Shown here: one piece after another, positions 10,095-44,099 of the stretch
Layout: each line of letters starts with the position of its first letter
Numbering within the stretch: the first letter of the stretch is position 1
Virus record (IMG/VR): IMGVR_UViG_3300010354_000166
Coordinates: 1 to 44,099 of that record
Length of the DNA stretch: 44,099 nt
Strand: one strand, 5' to 3'
From: a virus
Notes under the pieces: generated by a model
What the model saw: the letters and a program-made list of their open reading frames with translations, nothing else
Told to the model about the DNA's origin: nothing
The model's database searches: none
Position numbers and translations under genes: made by a program

Positions 10095-11755
10095 TAGATA
10101 TAATTCCACATATAAGAAAATTCTGCCTGAGAATCACCATATTCATCTGTATACCATCTATCTCCATCTTTATCGACAAAAGTACTTTCGTCATTTATAC
10201 CATCAACAATAAAACCAAATGGTGACATATCTTGCTCTACTTGGTTTTTTTGTTCTTCATATATTTTTTTTCTTATATCTTGATCTGTAAGTTCTTTAAA
10301 ATAATCTTGAAGAATCAACCAAGAATACATTACTAAGCACATTACTAAATCATCGTTTCTACCTTCTTCCGCCTCAAAAGAATTTCCTTTTTGAATAAAA
10401 GTTGTAAGTTCATTAATGATCTCAAAATCATTAAATACAAGTTTATTATCTTCAATAAGAGTTTTGAGATTTAAACATCCAACCTTTTTAGTTGTTTTTG
10501 ACATTTTTACGCCAAGTTGGACTTTTTTTCCAGAAAATCCTTGACCAAGAATTTGTCCTGCTCTTCCTCGCATAGAACTCATAAGAAGATTCGAATATTC
10601 TAAATCATAATGAAGACCAGCAGCTACTTGATCTCCAACATCATTGACCTCACATAGAACATATGCTTTATTATAAGATGTTGCAACTTCTTTTATAATT
10701 TGGGGAAATAATATAGGTCTTATTTGATTATTTCTATATTTTGCAACTACTTTATGTGGGAATTGAGAAACATCTATAACTGCAAATGCAGAAAAATCTT
10801 TTTCTACGCCACGAGCGACATCAACAGTAATCACATATGTATGGTCCTCCTGAGGGTCCTCAAAGACATCTAATCCTGCACTAGATGTCTTTGGTTGTTC
10901 AAATACTAATCTATTAAGTACAGGACCAGAGATCAGTGTATCTGATGATCCAAGAAATAAACATTCAAATTCTTGTCTCCACTGTGCCTCAGAAGTATTT
11001 GCAATAGTGGTTCTTTTGAATTCCTCATCTCTTCCGGGAACATCTGTCCAATGAACTTCAATTGGAACATAAGCGTTCTTACTTTTTTGCGCATCATCCC
11101 ATAGACGATAGAAATGGTTCATACCATAAGGAGTACTAACCACAATAACCTTTGAAGATAGTCCAGATGTAATTACAGGATATACTGAACTAAAGAAATT
11201 ATCCGCAACAGTATTTGGAACGAATGCAAATTCGTCCAAGAAAATGATATTATAAGTTCCACCTCGAATTGATGATGCAGAAGTTGATGCAGCAGTAATC
11301 TTGGATTTATTCTCAAGTTCCATAGAACCCTTATTCCAAGATATTACTCCTTGCTGCAACCATTTTGGTAGGTTTTCATAACCTGTTTGTAGGCGATCAA
11401 GAAGATCTCTTGCAGTTGATGCTTTGTTCGCAAGAATTGCTATATTTACATTATCATTAAAAATTGCATAATGAAGAAGATAAGAAACTACTGTGGTACT
11501 TTTTCCAGATTGACGAGGAAGCTTACAAATACTGAAACGATTATTATGAAATGTCTCAATCATCTCCTCTTGAAAAGGATAAGTATTAAATTTTGATAAT
11601 CCGTGATCAAGAGTTACAATTTTTATATAATTCTTTGCGAAATAAACTGGATCTTTTGCACATTTAATCCACTCAAGAACTTGTTCTTCAGTAAATTCAA
11701 TTTTTGTATTTGCCTTCTTGAGCAGAGGATTGCCCAAATAGTATTCTTCAGACAT
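10094..11755 (-). CDS. gp17: Large terminase subunit gp17
   Basis: gp17 is the ATPase motor and headful nuclease that packages DNA through the gp20 portal. The 553-aa product shows all the motifs. The Walker A variant PRQSGKST is at residues 80-87, Walker B IIFLDEF at about 170-176 (D174, E175) and the coupling motif VSTP at about 206-209. The C-terminal RNase H-like nuclease supplies D312 (ITVDVARG), E369/D372 (LCEVNDVGD) and D468/D469 (GRNDDLVM). The start at 11755 (MSEEYYLG) overlaps the last 8 bases of the upstream homing endonuclease gene, and the stop overlaps the next gene by one base. In T4 gp16 directly precedes gp17; here three genes intervene. Confidence 0.98.
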   Translation of the reverse strand: MSEEYYLGNPLLKKANTKIEFTEEQVLEWIKCAKDPVYFAKNYIKIVTLDHGLSKFNTYPFQEEMIETFHNNRFSICKLPRQSGKSTTVVSYLLHYAIFNDNVNIAILANKASTARDLLDRLQTGYENLPKWLQQGVISWNKGSMELENKSKITAASTSASSIRGGTYNIIFLDEFAFVPNTVADNFFSSVYPVITSGLSSKVIVVSTPYGMNHFYRLWDDAQKSKNAYVPIEVHWTDVPGRDEEFKRTTIANTSEAQWRQEFECLFLGSSDTLISGPVLNRLVFEQPKTSSAGLDVFEDPQEDHTYVITVDVARGVEKDFSAFAVIDVSQFPHKVVAKYRNNQIRPILFPQIIKEVATSYNKAYVLCEVNDVGDQVAAGLHYDLEYSNLLMSSMRGRAGQILGQGFSGKKVQLGVKMSKTTKKVGCLNLKTLIEDNKLVFNDFEIINELTTFIQKGNSFEAEEGRNDDLVMCLVMYSWLILQDYFKELTDQDIRKKIYEEQKNQVEQDMSPFGFIVDGINDESTFVDKDGDRWYTDEYGDSQAEFSYMWNYI

Positions 11756-38146: not shown

Positions 38147-40057
38147 TTATTTTCTTATAAGATCTCCGTTTGAGTAACTTGAAGTTACAAAATAATTTGA
38201 ACCGGATATGTCGCCACCAGATGAAATAGTATCTGATACCATATTAACAACACTTTTTTCAAAATCAAGTTGTAAATAAAGATCTTGTAATCCGATTACA
38301 TCATTTGATTTTGGAATTGCAGAAATTTCAATAATTGAATCTTGTCCAAATTTTTTAACTGTACTAGTTATATTCACTGGATATAAAATAATTTCACCTT
38401 TTTTATAATCAATTGTGCCAACATCTTTTCTTATTATTTGATAAGTATCCTGAGAATTTAATTTAAAGAATATTATTTTTCCTGTCTTTTGATCTGAATT
38501 TGGTATATCTGTAAGATATACTGTATCAGAAATTCCAGCAACATTAAAACCAGAAGATTTGATATTGAATCCATTTAATGATTTTATATGAAATTCATTT
38601 CCATAGCAAATTTCATATGTTGCAAATTGAGATAAGGAAGCTCTTAGATCTCTTCTAATGGATAATTTTGTTATATTTGAAGTGATAGCTTCGTTTGTAT
38701 CGTCTATTATTTTTAAAAACTTACTATATTTAAATCTAGCACCATACTTATTAACTTCAGAAGAATTTGAATAATTTATAATATTATTTAAAACTAAGGA
38801 CTTTAAATAATCTACATTGAAAGTTTTATTGGTATCATAATAAACAGTAGAATCTATCTCTACAAAAATATACTTAAGATCTAGAATTTCTGGAACTATT
38901 CCAGCAACACTATATCTTCTTAGATATTTTTTGATATTATCTTTTACCGAACTTGGTATAAAGGTACTATTGTATGGTTTTATTGATATAAAAACTCTTC
39001 CGTATTTTGGTGGATTTAAATCTTCTCCACCAAATACAGATATAGATTCTGTTTCCGGATAAATCTTTGGAATCAGTGTCTCATAATCAGTAGAGGTCAC
39101 TGCTCTATTTTGAGACGCATATATTCTAGGAGCATATTTTTTAATAGAGTTTACTGATTCAATTTCTCTTCCATTTTGAGAAACTGCATTAGTAGTAATT
39201 AATGATATTGAACTATTAACAACACGATTATTATTATCAACTATTCTTCCACTAAAATTAAAGGAAGACACTCCATTTGCAGATTCACCATTCGTTACAA
39301 TATAAGAAACTTCTATGTAATTAGTATTATCTAATTTTTTACCAAAAACTCCATCGCCAAATATGAGTTCATATCTTTGATCTTCTATTTCTTGAATAAA
39401 GAATACTCTAGAAGAAGAATTGATATCAAATAAGTTCTTTGAAAGATTGAATTTTATTCTATTTGAACTGGTTTGATTATCTCGGACAAAAACTTTAATG
39501 CTGTCAATATCAATATTTGGATTATCTAAAATAAATCTTTGATCTGGATTATTTGAATCTATAGTAAAATTGGTGACAATATATGTGCCTTCATATACAT
39601 CAATATTGTCAAATAGAGCAATACCATTTGATACAGGTGCTGTAATATCCTCATGTATAGTAAAAGAATAACTTTGACCACCAAAGGATGAACTTGAAGC
39701 ACATACCACACCCTTTTTAAGAGTCAGTGTTATAGGGTTTGTTGTTAATGCACTAGTATCTACAAAAAATGATATATTTGCTCTCGATGAAGTCCTAGAA
39801 TTAGGAACATAACCAATATTTCTTGCTAGAGATACTACATTTTCTCGGAGAGTAGCACTATCAATAAAAACCTCATTGCTAACCATGTTAGCATTGTATG
39901 AGGTAATGTAAGTATTGTATGCTAAAACATCAACAATAGTGGAAAGATTTGACCCTTCAAAATCATAATCAGTAAAGTTTGAATTCGCTCTAAGATAATC
40001 ACGAATTGAACTTTTGATTTGATCGAAATCTAAATTAGTAAAATTAACTAGTGCCAT
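38147..40057 (-). CDS. gp6: Baseplate wedge protein gp6
   Basis: gp6 forms the continuous ring of the baseplate wedges and belongs to the baseplate J-like family. The 636-aa product starts MALVNFTNLDFDQIKSSIRD and has NFTDYDFEGSNLSTIVDVLA, TYITSYNANMVSNEVFIDSA and SLARNIGYVP, diagnostic for T4-type gp6. Later landmarks are IYASQNRAVTSTDYETLIPK, YPETESISVFGGEDLNPPKY and GRVFISIKPYN at about residues 310-360. It follows gp25 with no spacer (gp25 stop and gp6 start are adjacent) and ends 1 bp before the giant gene, so gp25, gp6 and the giant are one transcription unit. Length is near that of T4 gp6 (660 aa from memory). Confidence 0.97.
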   Translation of the reverse strand: MALVNFTNLDFDQIKSSIRDYLRANSNFTDYDFEGSNLSTIVDVLAYNTYITSYNANMVSNEVFIDSATLRENVVSLARNIGYVPNSRTSSRANISFFVDTSALTTNPITLTLKKGVVCASSSSFGGQSYSFTIHEDITAPVSNGIALFDNIDVYEGTYIVTNFTIDSNNPDQRFILDNPNIDIDSIKVFVRDNQTSSNRIKFNLSKNLFDINSSSRVFFIQEIEDQRYELIFGDGVFGKKLDNTNYIEVSYIVTNGESANGVSSFNFSGRIVDNNNRVVNSSISLITTNAVSQNGREIESVNSIKKYAPRIYASQNRAVTSTDYETLIPKIYPETESISVFGGEDLNPPKYGRVFISIKPYNSTFIPSSVKDNIKKYLRRYSVAGIVPEILDLKYIFVEIDSTVYYDTNKTFNVDYLKSLVLNNIINYSNSSEVNKYGARFKYSKFLKIIDDTNEAITSNITKLSIRRDLRASLSQFATYEICYGNEFHIKSLNGFNIKSSGFNVAGISDTVYLTDIPNSDQKTGKIIFFKLNSQDTYQIIRKDVGTIDYKKGEIILYPVNITSTVKKFGQDSIIEISAIPKSNDVIGLQDLYLQLDFEKSVVNMVSDTISSGGDISGSNYFVTSSYSNGDLIRK

Positions 40058-42881: not shown

Positions 42882-42917
42882 GCACGACTAATCACTGTAT
42901 TTAAGCACGGATACTAG

Positions 42918-42946
42918 GGGTGCTAAGTGTCACAAACTCAGCACCC
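42918..42946 (-). terminator. Stem-loop after the small-gene array
   Basis: GGGTGCT pairs with AGCACCC, then after one A/C mismatch AGT pairs with ACT around a 7-nt loop. It lies 12 bp past the stop of the last small gene in the array. No U-tract follows on either strand, so it may be a processing or stabilising hairpin rather than a standard terminator. Confidence 0.45.
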
Positions 42947-42958
42947 ACTAAGTATACC

Positions 42959-43123
42959 TTACTGCCCGGTGAGTTTGTTCTCAATAAAGACCATAAGTTC
43001 GCCAACGTCAACTAGAGCGTTGTGCCAATGATGCGCCAGTCCATACTCTTCAATAAACTCGACACCGACACAGCAATGGCAGGCAAGTGTGAGAGCGTTA
43101 GCGTAAGGAATTGCAGCGGGCAT
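42959..43123 (-). CDS. Small-array gene 5 (54 aa, unknown)
   Basis: This frame reads MPAAIPYANALTLACHCCVG, then VEFIEEYGLAHHWHNALVDV and GELMVFIENKLTGQ. It carries a CHCC cluster near residues 15-18 and HHWH near 31-34, so metal binding is conceivable. No family is recognised. Its leader carries the CCCCCTGATTCTT-type element (43131-43150) that also precedes small-array gene 2. Base composition is clearly richer in G and C than the phage tail genes. It is the last of at least five co-oriented short genes, each separated by a stem-loop. Confidence 0.62.
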   Translation of the reverse strand: MPAAIPYANALTLACHCCVGVEFIEEYGLAHHWHNALVDVGELMVFIENKLTGQ

Positions 43124-43130
43124 GAGACTA

Positions 43131-43150
43131 AAGAATCAGGGGGGAAGAAT
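43131..43150 (-). repeat. Leader repeat B, copy 1
   Basis: The plus strand reads aagaatcaggggggaagaat; copy 2 at 43888-43907 differs at one base. Both copies lie 7-10 bp before a small-gene ATG on the minus strand, and contain AAGAAT twice. The placement suggests a shared translation or regulatory leader. Confidence 0.7.
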
Positions 43151-43151
43151 T

Positions 43152-43172
43152 GAGCAGTTTAGTGTCATGCTC
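43152..43172 (-). other. Stem-loop between small-array genes 4 and 5
   Basis: GAGCA (43152-43156) pairs with TGCTC (43168-43172) around an 11-nt loop. It is weaker than the G/C-tract hairpins in the other gaps, but it occupies the same place between neighbouring short genes. Confidence 0.35.
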
Positions 43173-43185
43173 AGGACGGGTTAGA

Positions 43186-43365
43186 TTAACCCAGATAATA
43201 GCGGGCAACCTTATCAGTACCCTGACTCACGAGATACTGATTCATTGTATCAACCCACTGTTGCATTTGCTCTACCGTGAGGCGGCGATCATCGTTAACG
43301 ATAACAACGGCGCCGCTGCTGGTCTGAAGCAGGGCACGGTTGAGATTGGTCGGGGTGTAGGTCAT
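43186..43365 (-). CDS. Small-array gene 4 (59 aa, unknown)
   Basis: I choose ATG 43365 (MTYTPTNLNRALLQTSSGAV, VIVNDDRRLTVEQMQQWVDT, MNQYLVSQGTDKVARYYLG). An ATG at 43401 would add 12 residues, but those codons are the 29-bp leader repeat A, which also precedes the next gene where it cannot be extended to a start. A GGGAG Shine-Dalgarno 7 bp upstream supports 43365. The product looks like a small alpha/beta fold (SGAVVIVNDDRRLT then a helix). No family recognised. GC-rich compared with the tail genes. Confidence 0.7.
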   Translation of the reverse strand: MTYTPTNLNRALLQTSSGAVVIVNDDRRLTVEQMQQWVDTMNQYLVSQGTDKVARYYLG

Positions 43366-43369
43366 GGGT

Positions 43370-43398
43370 TGTCTCCCGTGTTGACTCTGTAATTCTAC
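43370..43398 (-). repeat. Leader repeat A, copy 1 (29 bp)
   Basis: This 29-bp stretch is identical to 43628-43656. On the minus strand it contains a TAGAAT box near its 5' end, preceded by TGG (extended -10-like), and a GGGAG Shine-Dalgarno near its 3' end, ending 4 bp before the ATG. It appears to be a complete portable 5' leader. Confidence 0.85.
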
Positions 43399-43405
43399 CA
43401 TGTCG

Positions 43406-43427
43406 GGGGGACCGTTGCGGGTCCCCC
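43406..43427 (-). terminator. Stem-loop between small-array genes 3 and 4
   Basis: GGGGGACC pairs perfectly with GGTCCCCC around a 6-nt loop (GTTGCG). It lies 7 bp after the stop of gene 3 and just before leader repeat A of gene 4. It lacks a clear U-tract on the minus strand, so it could be a terminator, a processing site or an end-protecting hairpin. Confidence 0.55.
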
Positions 43428-43434
43428 TGTTTGA

Positions 43435-43623
43435 TCAGTCCTGAATCTCAGTGGTGAACAGAAGCACCAGATCGATCAGGCAATCTGCGAAACTGTTAAC
43501 CCCGTTAATCTCCCGCTCAGCAAACTCGGTCGCCACTTTGAGATTGGGGGCGTCGATTGCCACGCTGTCATTCTCGATACCGTTAGGACCGTAGAAGGTG
43601 GCAAGGAAGGTAAAGGTGAACAT
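43435..43623 (-). CDS. Small-array gene 3 (62 aa, unknown)
   Basis: The product reads MFTFTFLATFYGPNGIENDS, then VAIDAPNLKVATEFAEREIN and GVNSFADCLIDLVLLFTTEI. A beta-strand start with an A/T/F alternation, then a helix (LKVATEFAEREI), suggests a small alpha/beta protein; the hydrophobic end (CLIDLVLLF) is too short for a sure membrane helix. No family recognised. The GGGAG Shine-Dalgarno 7 bp upstream is part of leader repeat A copy 2. It has a stem-loop on each side. Confidence 0.7.
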   Translation of the reverse strand: MFTFTFLATFYGPNGIENDSVAIDAPNLKVATEFAEREINGVNSFADCLIDLVLLFTTEIQD

Positions 43624-43627
43624 TGGG

Positions 43628-43656
43628 TGTCTCCCGTGTTGACTCTGTAATTCTAC
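43628..43656 (-). repeat. Leader repeat A, copy 2 (29 bp)
   Basis: Identical over 29 bp to copy 1 at 43370-43398 and placed the same 4 bp before a small-gene ATG. In this copy the reading frame cannot be extended to an ATG upstream, showing the repeat is untranslated leader rather than coding sequence. Confidence 0.85.
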
Positions 43657-43666
43657 AGGATGGATC

Positions 43667-43685
43667 GGGGGATCGGAGACCCCCC
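43667..43685 (-). other. G-tract/C-tract stem between small-array genes 2 and 3
   Basis: GGGGG (43667-43671) can pair with CCCCC (43681-43685) across a 9-nt loop. It lies after the gene 2 stop and before leader repeat A copy 2, matching the pattern of the other gaps, but with a shorter stem. Confidence 0.35.
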
Positions 43686-43694
43686 TTGTGCCAG

Positions 43695-43877
43695 TCAGTC
43701 GATTGTCACACCCCGAACATCCGCCGCATAAGATTCCCGGTAAGTCTTGGCGATTGAAACAACATCATTACCGCAATCCATTCCAGCAAAGGTTTGGGCG
43801 GTGTGAGTTGCAGCATCATGAGGCGCCCAGTATTCTTCCTGAGTTTGGATGTTGCAGCAGCGGGAAAAGATTGCCAT
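43695..43877 (-). CDS. Small-array gene 2 (60 aa, unknown)
   Basis: I choose ATG 43877 (MAIFSRCCNIQTQEEYWAPH, DAATHTAQTFAGMDCGNDVV, SIAKTYRESYAADVRGVTID); a TTG start at 43889 is possible but lies inside the leader. The protein has CC at 7-8 and one more Cys at 35, plus helical AATHTAQTF and SIAKTYRESYA. No family recognised. The leader carries element B copy 2. GC-rich, on the minus strand like its neighbours. Confidence 0.62.
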   Translation of the reverse strand: MAIFSRCCNIQTQEEYWAPHDAATHTAQTFAGMDCGNDVVSIAKTYRESYAADVRGVTID

Positions 43878-43887
43878 GGTTTGAATC

Positions 43888-43907
43888 AAGAATCAGGGGG
43901 AAAGAAT
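43888..43907 (-). repeat. Leader repeat B, copy 2
   Basis: The plus strand reads aagaatcagggggaaagaat, 19 of 20 identical to copy 1 at 43131-43150. It ends about 10 bp before the gene 2 ATG and directly abuts the stem-loop at 43908-43929. Confidence 0.7.
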
Positions 43908-43929
43908 GGGGGGATTGTTTGATCCCCCC
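43908..43929 (-). terminator. Stem-loop between small-array genes 1 and 2
   Basis: GGGGGGAT pairs perfectly with ATCCCCCC around a 6-nt loop. It is 7 bp past the stop of gene 1. On the minus strand it is followed by ATTCTTT, a modest U-rich run, so this is the most terminator-like of the array stem-loops. Confidence 0.6.
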
Positions 43930-43936
43930 TTGAGAA

Positions 43937-44098
43937 TCACTGACCGTTAGTGTAATCTCCGATGATGATTCCATTCTGCCGAACTTGAGCATAACCAAAC
44001 TCGATAGACAGATCGAGGCAGAGATCCCACGCTTGGTCCTCATCGGTGGTGGTATTCTCCCAAGGGGCAGAAGGGCAGATCACGTCGAGGCGGGTCAT
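43937..44098 (-). CDS. Small-array gene 1 (53 aa, unknown; start near window edge)
   Basis: The frame reads MTRLDVICPSAPWENTTTDE, then DQAWDLCLDLSIEFGYAQVR and QNGIIIGDYTNGQ before TGA. The ATG lies one base from the window end, so a longer upstream start cannot be excluded and its leader cannot be seen. The pattern of a beta start, a helix (EDQAWDLCLDLSIEFG) and a final hairpin (AQVRQNGIIIGDY) looks like a small folded protein. No family recognised. Composition and the stem-loop after its stop match the other array genes. Confidence 0.6.
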   Translation of the reverse strand: MTRLDVICPSAPWENTTTDEDQAWDLCLDLSIEFGYAQVRQNGIIIGDYTNGQ

Positions 44099-44099
44099 G

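Follow-up and report, generated by a model that had tools for sequence, protein, structure and literature searches.

Leader A of a cyanophage small-gene array as the probable downstream half of a portable promoter-terminator unit

An array of small genes in a T4-like cyanophage

The window, i.e. the whole stretch of DNA analysed here (44,099 bases of an IMG/VR virus record), is a fragment of a T4-like cyanophage of the freshwater type. Matches to Synechococcus phages of both freshwater and marine origin, for example B23, S-SRM01 and Bellamy, were obtained for its structural block. Near one end of the window, a sequence-only reading had recognised an array of at least five short, co-oriented frames; five were confirmed, with the minus strand being used throughout:

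43937-44098, minus strand: gene a, ORF 44098-43937 of 53 aa
43695-43877, minus strand: gene b, ORF of 60 aa without a family match
43435-43623, minus strand: gene c, ORF of 62 aa, found at 5 loci in IMG/VR
43186-43365, minus strand: gene d, 59 aa, starting at an internal ATG of a 71-aa ORF
42959-43123, minus strand: gene e, 54 aa, the final gene of the array, followed by the AT-rich structural block

The G+C content of the array (42900-44099) is 50-58%, compared to 25-39% across most of the remaining window (1000-41000), as if its pool of small genes came from, or were common to, phages or hosts of higher G+C content.

When ten of the small proteins were compared with PHROG, one matched families of unknown function, one produced a marginal match only, and eight produced none. 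Gene a matches PHROG 17176/25733, whose function is unknown, and the PHROG matches of gene d are marginal at best. The predicted model of the gene a protein (pLDDT 91.6) has the order strand-strand-helix-strand-strand and returned no significant match against the PDB. The T4/RB69 antitoxin Dmd appears there at low significance (E about 1, TM about 0.6), a likeness between a predicted model and a known fold that may serve as a lead only, and the single viral match at E <= 0.001 is an unnamed protein.

Leaders and stem-loops of the array

Two leader elements, A and B, had been described as recurring in front of these genes, together with stem-loops in the intergenic gaps. The features located in these gaps are as follows:

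43908-43929, minus strand: hairpin after gene a, GGGGGGAT-CAAACA-ATCCCCCC with a T-rich tail, terminator-like
43888-43907, minus strand: leader B copy 1, 19/20 identical to copy 2, no -10 recognised
43623-43711, minus strand: full putative promoter-terminator unit before gene c, covariance model E 1.3e-17
43710-43687, 43685-43667 and 43655-43650, minus strand: box, hairpin and -10 (TAGAAT), respectively, of the gene c unit
43678-43673, minus strand: -35 position of the gene c unit, CTCCGA in the loop region, non-consensus
43628-43656, minus strand: leader A copy 1, -10 plus 5'UTR with GGGAG
about 43367-43427, minus strand: partial unit before gene d, E 2.5e-4, model positions 27-86
43370-43398, minus strand: leader A copy 2, identical to copy 1 over 29 bp
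43151-43192, minus strand: two stacked stem-loops between genes d and e, fold z -3.2
43131-43150, minus strand: leader B copy 2, 19/20 identical to copy 1

The two copies of leader A do agree at 29/29 bp, and each ends 4 bp before an ATG; no third copy was found in the window when 3 mismatches or fewer were allowed (chance expectation, 0). The duplication of leader B is equally genuine, as order-1 Markov shuffles of the region attain at best 17/20 for a repeat of this kind, compared to the 19/20 observed, and the pair is therefore not attributable to chance. The two leaders had been presented on a par, and in this respect the earlier description requires correction: leader A forms the downstream half of a putative promoter unit with a wide distribution, whereas in leader B, a private repeat of this phage, no -10 was recognised. 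The possibility that leader B represents a second general leader was rejected, as an exact-pattern scan finds it in this phage only.

The intergenic stem-loops were borne out as well, with very uneven significance (RNA-fold z of -0.6 to -3.2). A terminator scan of these hairpins was passed only by that at 43929-43908, after gene a, where the unit model gives a weak match (43929-43901, E 0.49). The partial unit before gene d possesses a hairpin (43427-43405) and a -10 (TAGAAT, 43397-43392) with a fold z of -2.6, and its upstream box is missing. All three matches of the unit model within the window (full, partial, and weak) fall in the array. The stacked pair in the gap separating gene d from gene e has no recognisable -10 and contains TGACACTAAACTGCTCA, perhaps a decayed box.

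The unit and its spread among cyanophages

The window contig breaks off inside the array, at an ATG directly after a full unit. A second contig, L001, shares 5,826 bp with the window without a single difference and then extends upstream, where the unit of gene a (L001:5824-5911) lies just beyond the window contig end. L001 carries seven full units of the same phage, six of them past the end of the window, and these share one order: a stop codon, ...TGGCACAAGGGG-hairpin-CCCC..., TATACT or TAGAAT, AnnAGTCAACC..., and ATG. In more general terms, the unit is approximately 88 bp in length and consists of a pseudo-palindrome (TGTGMCASTT-N4-AASTGGCACA), a variable hairpin, a TATAAT-like -10, and a leader of approximately 25 nt that ends at the ATG, leader A corresponding to the -10 box and 5'UTR.

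A pattern scan of IMG/VR with TGGCACAAGGGG-N6-22-CCCC retrieved at least 120 stretches; among the 142 matches listed, all but about a dozen exhibit the unit layout on inspection, and these matches come from marine as well as freshwater contigs. A covariance model built on 78 units, with copies counted at E <= 0.05, detects the unit in all ten complete Kyanoviridae genomes examined, at 6-43 copies per genome: ACG-2014f (43), S-SRM01 (33), B23 (32), P-SSM2 (26), S-CRM01 (24), S-PM2 (22), Syn1 (13), Bellamy (9), Syn9 (8), and S-CREM1 (6). At the same threshold, 0 copies are found in T4 and 0 in the podovirus Syn5, and the unit matches no Rfam family above the gathering score. Further copies of the unit of leader A, on which the sequence-only reading had made its proposal depend, are thus many, both in this phage and in other cyanophages, and nearly all of them precede an ORF.

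Most units occupy the spaces between small genes to which no function has been assigned. In ACG-2014f, 28 gaps between annotated genes measure 60-110 nt, and 24 of them contain a unit; in 31 of 34 cases, the first base of the unit is followed 81-93 nt later by the next annotated start. In Syn9, units at 50,999 and 51,210 separate gp77, gp78, and gp79, while in S-PM2 a unit (11346-11432) contains the published stem-loop 11369-11391, after S-PM2p038. Contig ends seldom fall in units, and the idea that units are general contig breakpoints was rejected on these grounds.

Gene gain and loss at units

That units occupy most of the longer gaps is also what would be expected under the principal alternative to a portable element, in which the units would be strong early promoters of the ordinary sigma-70 kind, resembling each other through selection for co-expression, with genes shuffled by other means; breaks would then appear at units merely because units fill the intergenic gaps. 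We regard this alternative as unlikely, in view of the differences between related genomes.

One gene and one unit of L001 are missing from L002, a 90% relative, with the junction lying in the common leader, a cassette difference which argues against mere co-expression. In the variable region of seven ACG-2014f isolates, eight distinct insertion/deletion loci were found. At four of these the junction is inside a unit, with 45-81 bp shared, compared to 0.58 loci expected if junctions were placed at random (P = 0.0015). Where the insert is present it stands between two units; the isolate without it has a unit resembling a left/right chimera of that pair. Intergenic junctions are expected for any viable insertion or deletion of a gene, and the specific part of this evidence is the 45-81 bp sharing and the chimeric recipient units, which speak against selection for co-expression alone. 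At the remaining four loci the junction is outside units, in agreement with the alternative. One ACG-2014f site holds a 3.4 kb methylase-helicase block in some isolates, other blocks elsewhere, and nothing in US4.

The association of one gene with many different leaders and neighbours is likewise at odds with co-expression as the sole explanation. Relatives of gene a occur in 160 IMG/VR stretches and, in the 79 examined, are flanked by at least 11 upstream and at least 26 downstream gene families and preceded by 23 leader variants. Among 48 distinct regions upstream of gene a, a -10 is present in 43 (1.3 in shuffles) and a hairpin in 33 (5.6 in shuffles). The suggestion that a leader shared by unrelated small genes reflects their modular gain and loss is therefore supported by the L001/L002 difference, the ACG-2014f chimeras, and the neighbours of gene a.

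Two further observations were made in these genomes. ACG-2014f C90 (NC_026927) carries two near-identical tandem units without a gene between them (38212-38394), where C9 and US37 have a single unit; the tandem pair looks like an emptied cassette. In L002, an inserted ORF (L002:2335-2808) that resembles an HNH homing endonuclease, as judged by eye, sits between a 61-aa ORF and the next large gene, and this site is empty in the window (about 42307) and in L001.

Promoter and hairpin elements

Of 107 nonredundant units, 37 have a TTG located precisely 17 bp upstream of the -10, while any other spacing accounts for 3 at most. The best -35 overlaps the hairpin loop, and is mostly inside it, in 126 of 147 units; in the phage of the window, the -35 hexamers are far from TTGACA. 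The start codon typically follows 21-27 nt past the -10.

The inner stem of the hairpin covaries, with 18 two-pair extensions observed compared to 4.5 in shuffles (0 of 2000 shuffles equalled this value), in a direct arm shuffle of a unit set pre-filtered for hairpin presence, which entails a mild bias. RNAalifold on a MAFFT alignment of the units recovers only three pairs, because stem lengths differ among units. A T-run follows the hairpin in 20 of 107 units and is absent from the full units of the phage of the window; this scarcity renders intrinsic termination doubtful for many units, including the full ones of this phage, while termination appears likely, on the strength of the motif, where the T-run is present. 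The stop codons of the upstream genes lie near the unit edge and fall in each of the three frames. A role as a three-frame stop cassette was rejected, since stops occur in all three frames within 16 nt in only 6 of 107 units.

The covarying stems, and the absence of the T-run from most units, would suit a reading of the hairpin and leader as an mRNA stability or processing element that sets the translation of the small genes, with little transcription start. However, many ACG-2014f units are without a hairpin and retain the box, the -35 position, and the -10, which indicates that the promoter part is the constant part of the unit; as the distance from box to -10 is also fixed (see below), we consider this reading very improbable. 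Chance repeats or assembly artefacts deserve practically no credence: although the window ends at an array repeat, the same units are present in the independent contigs L001 and L002 and in finished phage genomes, which refutes this explanation.

The upstream palindromic box

Among 52 nonredundant units from reference phages and long contigs, 51 have the right half of the box beginning 35-38 nt upstream of the -10. This half, as opposed to the left half, belonged to the search pattern, and its invariance in the first set of units is therefore by construction. A scan with the box only, outside ACG-2014f, finds a -10 34-39 nt on for 51 of 62 boxes, compared to 14-22% of random positions, and thereby confirms the fixed distance from box to -10.

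The two halves of the box vary independently (a match of 5.90/10 within the same unit and of 6.00/10 to other units). An RNA hairpin at this palindrome was rejected, as neither positions -10/-1 nor the two halves exhibit covariation, and the lack of covariation between the halves favours a DNA site over an RNA stem. A sigma-54 promoter (TGGCAC-N5-TTGC; -24/-12) was also rejected, since GG and GC are separated by about 4 bp more than such a promoter allows, and since a TATAAT-like box is located at a fixed distance downstream. Host origin of the palindrome was discarded, since the exact pattern is scattered among unrelated bacteria and a scan for it reveals no enrichment in the picocyanobacterial hosts (Synechococcus, Prochlorococcus).

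We tentatively suggest that this 24-bp box, centred approximately 55 bp before the expected start in units across Kyanoviridae, might bind a dimeric factor controlling a regulon of small early genes, a possibility that we rate below even. Candidates for such a factor are a host activator, a protein delivered by the virion, or a phage repressor. Marine T4-like cyanophages have been reported to be without motA and/or asiA (PMC5780444), and the conserved box might account for early control where these T4 switch proteins, AsiA and MotA, are reportedly absent.

Proposed working and significance

Taken together, Kyanoviridae very probably carry a portable unit that combines promoter and terminator, with leader A as its downstream half, and that doubles as homology for gene exchange. 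Direct support comes from the anatomy of the unit, its copy number, its intergenic placement, the fixed -35/-10 and box/-10 spacing, and the junctions inside units. From the sequence we infer promoter activity, terminator activity, early timing, and protein binding at the palindromic box. The hairpin would end transcription of the upstream small gene, or protect its mRNA, and a host-type sigma-70 RNA polymerase would restart at the -35/-10 pair that overlies the same hairpin, with the -35 position in the loop and the -10 about 17 bp downstream. The leader of approximately 25 nt would supply the ribosome site and end at the next ATG, such that small genes would be transcribed as independent units, singly or a few in a row. 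Early use of host sigma-70 is suggested by the -35/-10 pair and by the placement before small genes of unknown function. With dozens of copies in the same orientation, homologous recombination could insert or delete single genes or blocks, and a chimeric unit would remain.

Small genes without a known function are abundant in T4-like cyanophages, and many of them are headed by the unit. A recognisable unit could therefore help to find probable early genes throughout a genome and to fix where they truly start, while the chimeric junctions offer a concrete mechanism by which single genes may enter and exit these genomes.

Comparison with known systems

An early-gene element of the cyanophages Syn9 and P-TIM40, reportedly discovered by Doron et al. 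in 2016 and said to be conserved among T4-like cyanophages, may correspond to the palindromic box of the units.

The arrangement of hairpin, leader, and short gene had been thought undescribed, a view that finds no support, as it matches the promoter-early stem-loop (PeSL) cassettes of T4-type phages (Arbiol 2010 and Comeau 2014, as cited in PMC4503421). As portrayed in that account, PeSLs combine a stem-loop with a sigma-70-type promoter, are repeated between small nonessential genes in variable regions, and shuffle genes through recombination between copies. The cyanophage unit also occurs in many copies between small genes of variable regions, and recombination between its copies inserts or deletes genes. 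As regards the promoter, the -10 is present and the TTG at 17 bp is found in 37/107 units, by consensus only, with a poor -35 in the phage of the window; as regards the terminator, the stem covaries, but the T-run is limited to 20/107 units and many ACG-2014f units have no hairpin. Compared to PeSLs as that account describes them, the unit differs in its -35 position within the hairpin loop, its upstream pseudo-palindrome, its optional hairpin, and the frequent absence of the T-run. Moreover, the unit model has no match in T4, and the unit is therefore PeSL-like in its working and is not filed as a homologous member.

In the S-PM2 ORFanage, an early promoter and stem-loops have been described, including the stem-loop 11369-11391 after S-PM2p038, and the same 2015 paper considered PeSLs in S-PM2 too sparse to explain gene acquisition (PMC4503421), in contrast to the 22 model matches at E <= 0.05 observed here. 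In the haloarchaeal virus HGTV-1, a TATA-like box and an inverted repeat precede most ORFs of one genome arm, a motif that has been likened to PeSLs (PMC3950731), although it involves an archaeal promoter in an unrelated virus. While the overall architecture is thus not new in kind, the interlacing of the -35 with the hairpin loop, the palindromic box, and the family-wide density in cyanophages look to be new.
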